NCBI GenBank assembly: GCA_021775995.1
Contig: JAJFGS010000013.1
Coordinates: forward strand, 930,001 to 994,000
Reading direction: 5' to 3'
DNA: 64,000 nucleotides
DNA from: Alphaproteobacteria bacterium
GTDB lineage: Bacteria; Pseudomonadota; Alphaproteobacteria; Micavibrionales; Micavibrionaceae
The position numbers and the translations under genes are program-made. Positions 17,312 to 63,291 of the stretch are shown in pieces (position 1 is the stretch's first letter; each line of letters opens with the position of its first letter). The notes beneath the pieces are model-generated. The model ran no database searches. It was not told where the DNA came from and saw only the letters and a program-made list of their open reading frames with translations.

Positions 17312-17424
17312 TAGTCATACCCGCACCTTATATAGTCATACCCGCACCCTACATAGTCATACCCGCACCCTATATAGTCATACCCACACCCTATATAGTC
17401 ATACCCGCGCAGGCGGGTATCCGG
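17312..17424. repeat. 21-bp tandem repeat (five units) ending in a palindrome
   Basis: Units start with TAGTCATACCC at 17312, 17333, 17354, 17375 and 17396, exactly 21 bp apart, most reading TAGTCATACCCGCACCCTA. The last unit runs into the palindrome ACCCGCGCAGGCGGGT (17403-17418). This looks like the left half of a REP-type element amplified in tandem. It fills the gap between map and the GIY-YIG gene. There are no unique spacers, so it is not CRISPR. Confidence 0.9.
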
Positions 17425-17738: not shown

Positions 17739-17767
17739 AGCCAGACCCCCGCCGTCGCGGGGGTGAC
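17739..17767 (+). repeat. REP-like palindromic repeat at radC 5' end
   Basis: A 29-bp unit centred on ACCCCCGCCGTCGCGGGGGT. Its reverse complement recurs at 19372-19400 with one mismatch. It is followed by two degenerate copies of GTGACAGATAAT. The unit lies upstream of the preferred radC start, but inside the reading frame if the longer start at 17703 is used. Confidence 0.85.
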
Positions 17768-17813
17768 AGATAATACTACGGAGGTGACAGATAATGCTAC
17801 GGGGATAACAGAT

Positions 17814-19371: not shown

Positions 19372-19436
19372 GTCACCCCCGCGAAGGCGGGGGTCTGGCT
19401 TTTTATTTTTCCAGATGCCCGCCTACGCGGGCATGA
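19372..19436. repeat. Head-to-head pair of REP-like palindromes
   Basis: Unit one at 19372-19400 (GTCACCCCCGCGAAGGCGGG and following) and unit two at 19411-19436 (CCAGATGCCCGCCTACGCGG and following) face each other across a TTTTATTTTT spacer, the layout of a BIME. Unit one is the reverse complement of the radC-leader repeat at 17739-17767 with one mismatch. Confidence 0.85.
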
Positions 19437-19592
19437 CAATAGAGAGGAAACAAGCATGACAATAAAAAAGAGAATCGTCGCGCTCTTTGTGTGTCTTCGC
19501 GTCCTTTGCGTTAAAATGAAGAGATCCCCGCACTCAATAAAATACTGGGCAGGGATGACAGTATAACCTTTTCATGCTATACTCGTTCCACT

Positions 19593-19752: not shown

Positions 19753-19918
19753 TCAAATTTCCAGCGAGCAAACTGAAGATGGAGTGTTTTTGTAAACTCT
19801 TTCAATAGGTTACAGAGCAGGAAATCGCTGAAAAACTAATCATTTATGGTGTCATTATAGTGTCGGGGGCTGGTATATTGGGCAAAGCGGTGCTAAAACA
19901 CTCTTTGAATAAGAAAAA

Positions 19919-19958
19919 GCCCTCATGCGCGCCCATCAATTTATTTGGTGCGAGGAGG
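19919..19958 (+). promoter_or_regulatory. Hairpin motif upstream of purB shared with RNA near sucD
   Basis: GCCCTCATGCGC at 19919-19930 and TTTATTTGGTGCGAGGAGG ending at 19958 form a hairpin (CCCTC..GCGC against GTGC-GAG-GAGG). Nearly the same 40 nt occurs on the minus strand at 62050-62090. It ends 34 bp before the purB start, too far for its GAGGAGG to be the purB ribosome binding site. A cis-acting control element or the start of a small RNA is possible. Confidence 0.5.
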
Positions 19959-19992
19959 TTGCTAATCCATCAACCTAAAGAGTAATTAGAAC

Positions 19993-21300
19993 ATGATCCC
20001 CAGATATACCCGCCCCGAAATGGCCGCCATATTCGAGCCAGAAAATCGCTTCAAAATCTGGTTAGAAATTGAAACGCTGGCTTGTGAAAAAATGGCGGAA
20101 CTGGGTGTTATTCCTGAGGCGTGCCCGAAAGCGTTACGCGAAAAAGGTGGGTTTGATGTGAAGCGCATTGATGAGATCGAGCTTGAGGTCAAACATGACG
20201 TCATCGCTTTCTTGACCAGCGTCGCCGAGCATATTGATGATCCCGATGCGTCACGTTATGTGCATCAAGGGATGACCAGCTCCGATGTTGTCGATACATG
20301 TTTTGCCTATCAACTGACGCAGGCGGCGGATATTTTGCTTGGTGATTTAGATAAGCTTTTAGCGGCACTCAAAAAACGGATTGAGGAACATAAAAATACC
20401 TTATGTATCGGGCGCTCTCACGGTATTCATGGCGAGCCAACAACTTTTGGCTTAAAGCTCGCAGGGCATTATGCCGCTTTTAAACGGGCGAAACAAAGGC
20501 TAACGGCGGCGCGCGAGGAGATTGCAGTTTGTACAATTTCTGGTGCGGTGGGAACTTATGCGACCATTAATCCGCAAGTCGAGGAATATGTTGCGGCACG
20601 TTTGGGTCTTCGTCCCGAGACTGTCGCCACGCAAGTCATTCCCCGTGATCGTCATGCAACTTTCTTTTGCACGCTCGGTGTTATTGCGAGCTCTATCGAA
20701 AACTTTTCCATTGAGATACGCCACCTGCAAAGAACTGAAGTGCGCGAAGCTGAAGAATTTTTCTCTAAAAATCAAAAAGGTTCTTCTGCGATGCCGCATA
20801 AGCGCAATCCAATCTCCACCGAAAATCTCACTGGCTTGGCACGTGTTATTCGCGCAACAGTAACGCCAGCCTTGGAGAATGTCGCTCTCTGGCATGAACG
20901 TGATATCTCTCATTCCTCTGTCGAGCGTAACATTGGTCCTGACGCAACTGTGACATTAGACTTTGCGCTTCACCGCCTGACCAACGTTGTTGAAAATTTA
21001 ATTGTCTATCCAGAAACAATGATGGAGAACTTAGAGAAAATGGGGGGCTTGGTTTTCTCCCAACGTGTTCTCCTCGCCCTCACCCAAGCAGGAATTTCTC
21101 GTGAAGATGCCTACCGCATTGTCCAACGTAATGCGATGAAAGTTTGGGAGAGCAAGGCCCAGACAACTTTGTTAGACGCACTTGTAACCGATGAGGACGT
21201 CACTGCGAAACTATCTGAGGGCGACCTAAAGGCAATTTTTGATTATAAAGCCTACACACGTCATATTGAGTCAATTATTCACAGAGCATTAAACTCTTAA
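19993..21300 (+). CDS. purB: Adenylosuccinate lyase
   Basis: PurB catalyses two steps of purine synthesis: cleavage of SAICAR to AICAR and of adenylosuccinate to AMP, releasing fumarate. 435 aa, matching the short bacterial form. Visible motifs: MIPRYTRPEMAAIFEPENRF at the N-terminus, HQGMTSSDVVDTC (substrate loop), GRSHGIHGEPTTFG with the catalytic His, and the family signature SSAMPHKRNPI at about 263-273 containing the catalytic Ser. The leader is unusually long (about 430 bp from the preceding repeat) and holds two candidate RNA structures. The gene is followed by bacterioferritin in the same direction. Confidence 0.97.
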   Translation: MIPRYTRPEMAAIFEPENRFKIWLEIETLACEKMAELGVIPEACPKALREKGGFDVKRIDEIELEVKHDVIAFLTSVAEHIDDPDASRYVHQGMTSSDVVDTCFAYQLTQAADILLGDLDKLLAALKKRIEEHKNTLCIGRSHGIHGEPTTFGLKLAGHYAAFKRAKQRLTAAREEIAVCTISGAVGTYATINPQVEEYVAARLGLRPETVATQVIPRDRHATFFCTLGVIASSIENFSIEIRHLQRTEVREAEEFFSKNQKGSSAMPHKRNPISTENLTGLARVIRATVTPALENVALWHERDISHSSVERNIGPDATVTLDFALHRLTNVVENLIVYPETMMENLEKMGGLVFSQRVLLALTQAGISREDAYRIVQRNAMKVWESKAQTTLLDALVTDEDVTAKLSEGDLKAIFDYKAYTRHIESIIHRALNS

Positions 21301-52231: not shown

Positions 52232-52888
52232 ATGAAATTTTTTGCCGATACTTCCGATCTTGATGCCATTAAAGACCTTGCTGACTGCGGCATGCTGGAC
52301 GGTGTAACCACCAATCCTTCAATTATTGCAAAATCAGGCAAAGAATTTATCCCACTTATCCAAGAAATCTGCAAAATCTGCGATGGCCCCGTCAGTGCTG
52401 AAGTCGCCTCTACTGACTTTGCAACCATGATGAAAGAAGGCGAGAAATTGGCTGGAATCGCCGAAAATATCGCCGTAAAAGTCCCTTTAACCGAAGCGGG
52501 TCTTAAAGTATGTAAAAATCTAAGTGATAACGGCACAATGGTGAATGTGACACTATGTTTTTCACCCTTACAGGCTCTCTTGGCCGCCAAAGCTGGCGCA
52601 ACCTTCATTTCTCCTTTTGTTGGACGTCTTGATGATATTGGTCAAACAGGCATGGATTTAATCGCTGAAATTCTCACAATTTATGATAATTATCCTGAAT
52701 TCTATACCGAAGTCCTCGTGGCTTCCGTCCGTCACCCACAACATATCCGTGAAAGTGCGCTAATGGGTGCCGATGTCGTAACCTGCCCACCAGCTGTGAT
52801 TAAAAAACTTTATAAGCACCCTCTAACCGACAATGGTCTTGCCGCTTTCGTTGAGGACTGGAAAAAAACGGGGCAAAGTATCCTTTAA
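52232..52888 (+). CDS. fsa: Fructose-6-phosphate aldolase / transaldolase-like
   Basis: Small transaldolase of 218 aa, which in this subfamily often has fructose-6-phosphate aldolase activity. [32 protein letters not shown] is the family start. The Schiff-base Lys is in [12 protein letters not shown] at about residue 86, and [11 protein letters not shown] is also conserved. A palindromic element begins 10 bp after the stop. Whether it acts as transaldolase (tal) or aldolase (fsa) cannot be read from the sequence. Confidence 0.93.
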
Positions 52889-52898
52889 TCTCTTTTTT

Positions 52899-52986
52899 CG
52901 TCATTGCGAGGAGCCTATAAGGCGACGCGGCAATCCACCTTATAATCTCTCTGGATTGCTTCGTCATTTCATTCCTCGCAATGACG
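52899..52986. repeat. Palindromic interspersed element between fsa and DUF484 gene
   Basis: Arms CGTCATTGCGAGGAG and CTCGCAATGACG with inner GCGGCAATCC/GGATTGCTTCG. It is the same element as at 19109-19273 but without the nested insertion. It may terminate fsa and leaves only 21 bp for the DUF484 promoter. Confidence 0.88.
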
Positions 52987-53007
52987 TAATATATGCTAAA
53001 ATGAAGG

Positions 53008-61318: not shown

Positions 61319-61855
61319 TTACCCTTTAAGAACAGTGCGTAGTTTATTCAAGGCAGCTTTTTCAGCGTCACTTATATTCTCAGGATTTTTACCTAGGTTA
61401 GCACCACCACCTAAACTGCCCATCCATTCGAAAAGACGATTAAAATGCATTTCATTATCAGGGTCTATTTGCTCACCATAAGCTTGAGCAACCACCATAC
61501 CCATTCTCCAAATTGTTTGTTTATATTGTGCCAAAGCTTTGTCGCCTGCCTTTTCTTTACAAAGATTGAGTGCTGTTTCGACTTCAGCTAAAAACTTACC
61601 TTCATCCGCTACACTTGCCCATGACGGCCAAGAAGATTTGTTTTGCTCCACACCTTGCATCACCGCAGCGGCAAAAGGAGCTTTATTCTGTTTTGCTAAA
61701 CCGGAAATCGCCGCTTCCATGGCTTTGCTTTCCTCACGCTCATCAATCTTGCTACCCGTATTATCATCAACATTTGATACCCAAACGCCGACGCGATAAG
61801 GAATAGAGGCAATCAAAGTACGTTCTTCAGCGGTAAATTTTGATAAGTCAGCCAT
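61319..61855 (-). CDS. Hypothetical protein between sucD and sucA
   Basis: 178 aa, helical, no signal peptide. MADLSKFTAEERTLIASIPYRVGVWVSNVDD ... DEREESKAMEAAISGLAKQNK resembles tellurite-resistance TerB-like helical bundles in texture, but lacks a decisive motif. The C-terminal part FEWMGSLGGGANLGKNPENISDAEKAALNKLRTVLKG is Gly-rich. It is probably transcribed with sucA; the terminator at 61907-61952 lies just upstream of its start, so it has its own promoter in the short gap or depends on read-through. Confidence 0.65.
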   Translation of the reverse strand: MADLSKFTAEERTLIASIPYRVGVWVSNVDDNTGSKIDEREESKAMEAAISGLAKQNKAPFAAAVMQGVEQNKSSWPSWASVADEGKFLAEVETALNLCKEKAGDKALAQYKQTIWRMGMVVAQAYGEQIDPDNEMHFNRLFEWMGSLGGGANLGKNPENISDAEKAALNKLRTVLKG

Positions 61856-61952: not shown

Positions 61953-62091
61953 TTAAGAGGGGCTCTACCTTCATAACGAAGGGAAATGAGGTAAAGCTAT
62001 GGGTGGTGTGCGCCATAAACCGGTATGCGGCTATGACGACTTGGTTTAAGCCTCCTCGCGCCAAATAAATGAATGAGGGCGCATGAGGGCT
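61907..62091 (-). ncRNA. Candidate non-coding RNA (possibly 6S-like), sucD-sucA gap
   Basis: About 185 nt on the minus strand between the small ORF at 62147 and a strong terminator, with no open frame. It begins with a hairpin GCCCTCATGCGCC/GGCGCGAGGAGGC (62090-62050), continues CTTAAACCAAGTCGTC, reminiscent of the GCCTTAAAACTGCGACGAC segment of 6S RNA, then a GCCGCATA/TATGGC hairpin and a CCTTCGTTATGAAGG hairpin before the terminator. The length equals that of E. coli 6S (184 nt). The first 40 nt match the purB leader hairpin at 19919-19958. 6S identity is tentative; another alphaproteobacterial small RNA is possible. Confidence 0.42.
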
Positions 62092-62146
62092 TACTTTAAA
62101 AGAGGGGTTCAGGCTCTTTTGGGAATTCAATTTTTACATTAAAAAC

Positions 62147-62266
62147 CTAAAAAGTTATAATTTGACCTGCAAGGTCAGTCATATTCTCTAAAGGGTGAAA
62201 ATCAGCAATTTTTGCCAAAGTAATCAACCATAATGTTGTTCCTACGAAATATATCTTGTTTGTCAT
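62147..62266 (-). CDS. Small ORF, 39 aa, hydrophobic N-terminal half
   Basis: Minus-strand ATG at 62266 with GGGAG seven bases upstream. The peptide starts MTNKIYFVGTTLWLITLAKI and ends NMTDLAGQIITF; the first 21 residues could be a membrane helix. A hairpin AAAAGAG/CTCTTTT at about 62103-62125 lies downstream and may end its transcript. It lies after the sucD terminator and before the RNA candidate. A coding role is plausible but unproven. Confidence 0.4.
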   Translation of the reverse strand: MTNKIYFVGTTLWLITLAKIADFHPLENMTDLAGQIITF

Positions 62267-62415: not shown

Positions 62416-63291
62416 TTAGGCCGCCATCGCCTCTTTCATGGCACGCCCCAATCCACCAGGACTGTCTGATACAACAAAGCCTGCGGCGCGCATCGCATCC
62501 ATCTTGGCTTCAGCAGTATCATCACCACCAGAAATAATGGCGCCAGCATGCCCCATACGTTTTCCTGGAGGAGCCGTAGCCCCTGCGATAAAGCCTGCGA
62601 TTGGCTTTTTATTTTTCAGACCTTTATAAAATTCAGCTGCATCAATCTCTGCGGCACCCCCAATTTCACCAATCATCAAAATACCTTGAGTCTCATCGTC
62701 TTTCATAAATAATTCGATACAATCGATAAAGTTCGTTCCATTTACTGGATCGCCACCAATACCTATACAGGTTGATTGCCCCAATCCAACCGCCCCTGTT
62801 TGAGCAACAGCTTCGTATGTCAACGTACCAGAACGTGAAACGATTCCAATTTTACCTTTTTTATGAATGTGACCCGGCATAATACCAATCTTACATTCAT
62901 CTGGTGTAATCACCCCTGGGCAATTTGGTCCGATAAGACGTGTGTTAGAACCTTGAAGTGCACGCTTCACTTTTACCATGTCCAAAACAGGAATACCTTC
63001 GGTGATACAAACAACCAATTCAATTTTGGCATCAATTGCTTCTAAAATTGAATCTGCGGCAAATGGTGGCGGCACATAAATAACAGAGGCATTCGCTCCT
63101 GTTTTAGCTCTCGCTTCATCAACCGTATTAAAAACTGGCAACCCTAAATGGTCTTGCCCGCCCTTACCTGGGGTTACACCACCAACCATATTGGTACCAT
63201 AGGTAATGGCTTGCTCACTATGAAATGTACCTTGTGAGCCAGTAAAACCCTGACAGATAAGCTTTGTATTTTTATTCACTAGAACAGACAT
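62416..63291 (-). CDS. sucD: Succinyl-CoA synthetase alpha subunit
   Basis: Makes succinate and ATP/GTP from succinyl-CoA in the TCA cycle. 291 aa, standard. CoA-binding Rossmann motif [18 protein letters not shown], the [10 protein letters not shown] segment and the phosphorylated His in [13 protein letters not shown] are intact. The beta subunit gene (sucC) normally precedes it directly but here a membrane HhH gene does; sucC may lie beyond the right edge. Confidence 0.97.

Follow-up and report, generated by a model that had tools for sequence, protein, structure and literature searches.

CGTC-tagged REPs, as described by Di Nocera et al. (2013), include dRS3 of Neisseria and RPE-4/RPE-6 of Rickettsia, occur mostly in Alphaproteobacteria, have no dedicated transposase, and are reported as inverted pairs, predominantly head-to-head dimers (PMC3733652). 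They are defined by an unpaired tag, a stem of 8 to 9 bp from complementary AT, a loop of 4 to 5, and a tail that is mostly CCA (PMC3733652). The GTAG REPs and REPINs of E. coli and Pseudomonas, associated with RAYT transposases, are short imperfect palindromes dispersed between genes. A different kind of repeat is found in the Beggiatoaceae, where TAACTGA heptamers are lineage specific and lie near start codons, including those of ribosomal protein genes, and a translational role has been suggested (MacGregor 2015; PMC4679880).

The repeat described here, seen as two copies in the window (the whole analyzed stretch of 64,000 nucleotides), resembles the CGTC REPs in carrying a CGTC, CCTC, or TGTC tag with AT and a hairpin after it, in being dispersed and mostly intergenic, and in lacking a linked transposase. 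It departs from those families, however, in that its tag base-pairs with the 3' end (GTC with GAC, in covariation) and the AT lies opposite AG in an internal loop. The inner stem is 5 bp long with a loop of two bases, a CCA-type tail is missing, and the copies are concentrated before ribosome-binding sites in one orientation. As the tag and AT are present but the tag is paired and stem, loop, and tail depart from the definition, the repeat is related to the defined CGTC families yet falls outside them. It is a palindrome of 28 to 40 nt with many copies, mostly extragenic, as are REPs in the broad sense, and by these sequence features it is a variant with a closed (paired) tag that works like a REP. 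With GTAG REPs it shares the short imperfect palindrome and the dispersal between genes, but its consensus has no GTAG tag and no RAYT gene is flanked by copies; the hairpin itself resembles that of the E. coli REP. Like the TAACTGA repeats, it is lineage specific, dispersed, and close to start codons, including those of ribosomal protein genes, but it is a hairpin with compensatory changes and not a heptamer direct repeat. A limited literature search found no description of it.

Two copies near purB and in the suc operon

The original prediction proposed a 40-nt hairpin shared by two distant loci, and both copies are indeed there, with 42 nt at 88% identity between 19917-19958 (+) and 62051-62092 (-), the top inverted pair of the whole window. 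The features concerned are as follows.

19915..19963, + strand: copy A, hairpin repeat, long-loop subtype (covariance model R1, 43.2 bits, E 1.3e-10)
19993..21300, + strand: purB, adenylosuccinate lyase, downstream of copy A (Pfam Lyase_1 and ADSL_C)
62046..62095, - strand: copy B, hairpin repeat, long-loop subtype (covariance model R1, 44.3 bits, E 5.9e-11)
62416..63291, - strand: sucD, succinyl-CoA ligase alpha subunit, upstream of copy B (Pfam CoA_binding and Ligase_CoA)

The cores read GCCCTCATGCGC-GCCCATCA-ATTTATTTGGTGCGAGGAGG at 19919-19958 (+) and GCCCTCATGCGC-CCTCATTC-ATTTATTTGGCGCGAGGAGG at 62051-62090 (-). Allowing up to 3 mismatches, TTTATTTGGYGCGAGGAGG matched the window exactly twice, at both copies, against 0.03 matches expected from shuffled windows, and GCCCTCATGCGC, with at most 1 mismatch allowed, gave 2 matches against 0.11; shuffled windows thus yield essentially no such matches, and the resemblance is, as had been proposed, not due to chance. 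The 40-mer pattern with up to 3 mismatches occurs twice in the whole 2.0-Mb genome and is absent from all 94 relatives searched. Predicted folding of the two copies with their flanks gave z values of about -1.4 and -3.0, which are modest for single copies. The single T/C difference, which had been read as a G-U to G-C swap, is no clean swap. The stems of the two copies are paired in different registers, so that in the MFE folds the T in the purB copy has another G as its partner than the C in the suc copy. At the Rfam 15 gathering score neither copy had a match, those at an E value of up to 5 being weak and far below threshold, and over the whole window only a tRNA was detected.

Both copies can also be read as a short peptide, MRxHxFIWxEE, since each has a reading frame that starts at an ATG within the motif and runs to a stop (MRAHQFIWCEEVANPST and MRPHSFIWREEA). 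Every codon that differs between them alters the amino acid, in other members of the family the central sequence and the length are both different, and a peptide-type pattern found in 58 genomes, beyond these two sites, only scattered, chance-like matches. The peptide was therefore rejected, and we give it practically no chance of being real.

Copy A lies 35 nt upstream of the purB start codon and copy B between sucD and a 178-aa ORF ahead of sucA, each in forward orientation relative to its gene or operon, which is the minority orientation before genes. No copy was seen in the region upstream of purB in the congeners (the contig of genome G007 offers only 57 nt there), nor at the corresponding place in the suc gap of genomes G005, G003, and G008; the suc gap of G007 does contain a copy, at a different place beyond a small ORF. 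Being 2 of about 70 copies, absent there from the congeners and in the minority orientation, they do not form the regulatory pair that had been proposed; they look like lineage-specific insertions and gave no sign of a regulatory role.

The same gap contains two ORFs. A 39-aa ORF, MTNKIYFVGTTLWLITLAKIADFHPLENMTDLAGQIITF, at 62147-62266 (-) lies between sucD and the 178-aa ORF and looks like a conserved small protein; similar small ORFs are present in the suc gap of G005, G003, G008, and G007. The 178-aa ORF (61319-61855, -) is kept beside the suc genes across the genus and had no convincing Pfam family.

A dispersed family within one genus

The copy behind sucD in G007 reads GCCCTCATG-CCCGC-AA-GCGGG-AGGAGGC, with ends as in the window copies and a center that is different but complementary. 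A pattern with the conserved ends and a free center found 8 copies in the genome of the window (G000) and 3 in G007, while its reversed control had zero matches. A covariance model was then built from 13 copies, and with E of up to 1 (rough values, the calibration being short) it gave 72 matches in G000, 46 in G005, 45 in G007, 30 in G002, and 16 in G006, against 0 to 4 in the remaining congeners and most other genera. Weak matches at the same threshold appeared in genomes of other families and orders (18 in G065, 8 in G061, 8 in G066; best E about 0.006), and an exact-flank pattern run over 84,980 genomes had several matches per genome only in four related MAGs, with scattered single matches elsewhere. 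The window pair is thus two copies of a dispersed hairpin family in one alphaproteobacterial genus, with about 70 copies in this genome.

In a tree from NusA, PurB, and SucD, the repeat-rich genomes form two well-supported groups, (G000, G005, G007) and (G002, G006), both inside a clade (support 80) to which the repeat-poor G004 also belongs. Most copies are intergenic (95 of 127, versus 16.5% for random positions in the same loci), and there has been gain and loss between species: the rimP-nusA junction is occupied only in G000 among the genomes compared, and two copies in locus L131 are missing from G005 and G007. At the rimP, pnp, nusG, rpsE, rpmA, and yceD sites, on the other hand, a copy is common to two or three species with unchanged orientation. 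G005 has two tandem arrays, with 8 copies at a period of 43 (L166:1480-1805) and 4 copies at a period of 39 (L170:1870-2010). Most copies in the fetched loci appear single, with some direct neighbors (an impression and not a systematic count), and orientations along contig C5 look mixed by eye, with no apparent replication-strand bias.

Hairpin structure and covariation

About 130 copies give the consensus AGC-c-STC-ATR-N5-AA-N'5-AG-GAS-GCT, preceded by a T-run and then an A-run and followed by T-rich sequence. The unit is a 28-nt hairpin with T/A-rich flanks, extended to 40 nt in a long-loop subtype with about 14 T-rich loop bases, to which both window copies belong. The outer stem, AGC.S.TC / GA.S.GCT, consists of the pairs A-T, G-C, C-G, S-S, T-A, and C-G plus one bulged C (C in 95 of 103); RNAalifold favors an equivalent register at the bulge. 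Inside it come the ATR x AG internal loop, five freely varying pairs, and the two-base loop. The internal loop and bulge are invariant, and in the tag region, C-STC-AT, the S is G in 62% and C in 31%.

The pattern STCATRNNNNNAANNNNNAGGAS leaves the stem free, so pairing is not built into the search. At least four of the five inner-stem pairs are Watson-Crick in 64 of 70 distinct matches (mean, 4.43 versus 2.58 when shuffled), and 66 of the 70 distinct sequences have complementary S-S ends (shuffled mean, 39), as do 42 of the 45 in alignment A5. In the alignment of 45 sense-strand sequences, two-sided changes occur at 9 of 11 pairs and the covariation score is 0.465, versus 0.151 when shuffled and at most 0.083 when slid, although the events are not independent because the copies are related. 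At junctions common to several species, 17 comparisons of equal length gave 32 compensatory double changes, 5 one-sided changes, and 12 changes with one side unpaired.

Of the regulatory RNA motif family that had been proposed, what holds is a genuine hairpin family that keeps its stem by compensatory changes. Many copies scattered as a plain repeat had been named as what would speak against it; scattered copies are largely what we see, but they keep their structure, have a strand preference, and favor translation and transcription operons, so that to call them a plain repeat would fall short as well. The restored pairing at shared junctions would fit evolution in place under constraint and also gene conversion that overwrites copies. 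A purely selfish or inert REP is a reading that we find rather doubtful. Dispersal, empty sites, and tandem arrays are what such an element would leave, but retention with restored pairing in two to three species (which gene conversion between copies could also explain) and concentration in essential operons argue against it.

Strand bias and neighboring genes

Taking as a start an ATG with a Shine-Dalgarno (SD) sequence and an ORF of at least 60 codons within 60 nt, 33 copies have a start after the reverse strand and 9 after the forward strand (p 0.0003) in a sample of loci from the best covariance-model hits, with mechanical ORFs and with sites common to several species that are not independent. 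G000 alone gives 17:5 (p 0.017). Within essential-gene operons, the copies lie 13 to 26 nt before SD and ATG. The genes directly downstream of a sense-oriented copy include rpsD, rimP, nusA, pnp, secE, nusG, rpoB, yceD (assigned on a weak Pfam match), rpmF, rpmA, and rpsE; slightly further downstream are rplY, obgE, rpsF, and probably infB (a weak IF2_assoc match), and rplS immediately precedes one copy. By our own count, translation and transcription genes make up 13 of 24 sense-downstream genes, with a p of about 6e-9 against a genome share of 8% that is our estimate and not a measured background.

A selfish or inert element could still show such a bias if selection acted against the forward strand near start codons, where its GAGGAGG is a strong SD-like sequence, or if insertion preferred A-rich leader DNA. 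The forward-strand count of all starts is about that of random positions, which is in line with a selfish element.

The bias is likewise what would be expected of an RNA regulon, in which a trans-acting RNA-binding protein or ribonuclease would recognize the conserved part, which on the sense strand has a bulged G and reads UCCU ... YAUGA, in the leaders of translation and transcription genes and between their cistrons, and would coordinate these genes. Strand bias, tight spacing to SD and ATG, the kind of genes downstream, compensatory change at common junctions, and the invariant internal loop and bulge speak for it, and so do the canonical CGTC REPs of the same genome, which have no such bias: a strict pattern finds 25 in G000, with only 2 forward and 2 reverse starts. 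Against it stand the lack of a known binding factor, the many copies that are found away from such sites or face the opposite way, the rimP-nusA copy, which among the genomes compared is confined to G000, the several congeners that manage without the element, and the mostly unpaired SD of the predicted folds. We therefore hold a regulon of this kind to be possible but not probable.

Canonical CGTC-type REPs (GTCAY-N-CCCGC...GCGGG-N-RTC) also cluster near purB, at 17398-17421 (+), 17745-17768 (-), 19372-19395 (+), and 19414-19437 (-), and a tandem 21-bp repeat, TAGTCATACCCGCACCCTATA, in four overlapping copies at 17312-17416, runs into one of them. Palindromes of the CGTCATTGCGAGGA type at 52881-52912 and 52973-53004, and in locus L154 near 1540, apparently represent a third dispersed family.

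Sequestration of the SD by the UCCU arm was rejected, as in predicted folds the SD is mostly open (mean, 0.75 unpaired) and mostly not paired with the hairpin; an insulating, processing, or stabilizing role would be likelier. Weak intrinsic terminators or attenuators between genes, with a G+C-rich hairpin followed by TTTTAAAA, are improbable in our judgment: on the reverse strand of most copies a T-rich tract comes right after the hairpin, but it is only about 4 long with A's next, termination so close to SD and ATG in essential-gene operons would be harmful, and a terminator scan called neither window copy.

Mobility and a possible mode of action

Taken together, we consider the repeat to be probably a REP-like, nonautonomous palindromic element of one alphaproteobacterial genus that is transcribed as an intercistronic hairpin. 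Its spread may be due to a transposase that recognizes the conserved GTCAT-hairpin in trans, a mechanism that has been proposed for REPs. The single Y1_Tnp gene of the genome was rejected as the mover, since it is unlinked to the copies, has Q-I-H at the place expected for the HUH motif, and is also present in congeners without the repeat; no copy adjoined any Y1_Tnp gene examined. The encoded RAYT-like protein (contig C11, L089:1180-1863, -) is single copy and kept in 9 of 10 genus genomes, and the Y1_Tnp proteins read in the genus carry Q-I-H or Q-V-H instead of the HUH motif; the protein is possibly domesticated.

Within an operon, the reverse strand would be read as RNA in the order hairpin, UUUUAAAA, SD, AUG. 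With its closing C-G or U-A pair, the UU loop could be a CUUG-type tetraloop, which would favor the reverse strand as the RNA. The operon transcript would fold an intercistronic hairpin by which mRNA segments may be protected or separated, while the downstream SD site stays exposed. Several points weigh against a REP-like element: structure-keeping copies common to several species exceed the expectation for neutral mobile debris, no transposase is tied to the repeat, the copies appear mostly single versus the inverted pairs of CGTC REPs, and the gene enrichment stands on an assumed background. A REP-derived hairpin might also have been co-opted in this genus as a dispersed, strand-specific RNA element that sits in the leaders and between the cistrons of transcription and translation genes (the set listed above as directly downstream of a sense-oriented copy) and is recognized by one trans-acting factor, a regulon made from mobile palindromes, an idea that we put forward only tentatively.

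It has long been asked whether REPs are junk or functional RNA. As a presumed regulatory pair, purB and suc drop out. One genome holds two palindrome families that are related: the canonical CGTC REP has little gene-start bias, whereas the closed-tag variant shows strong compensatory change at common junctions and a strand-specific place before the ribosome-binding sites of essential operons. This contrast allows the question of junk versus function to be tested inside a single genome and hints at a way in which a mobile palindrome could turn into a dispersed RNA element.
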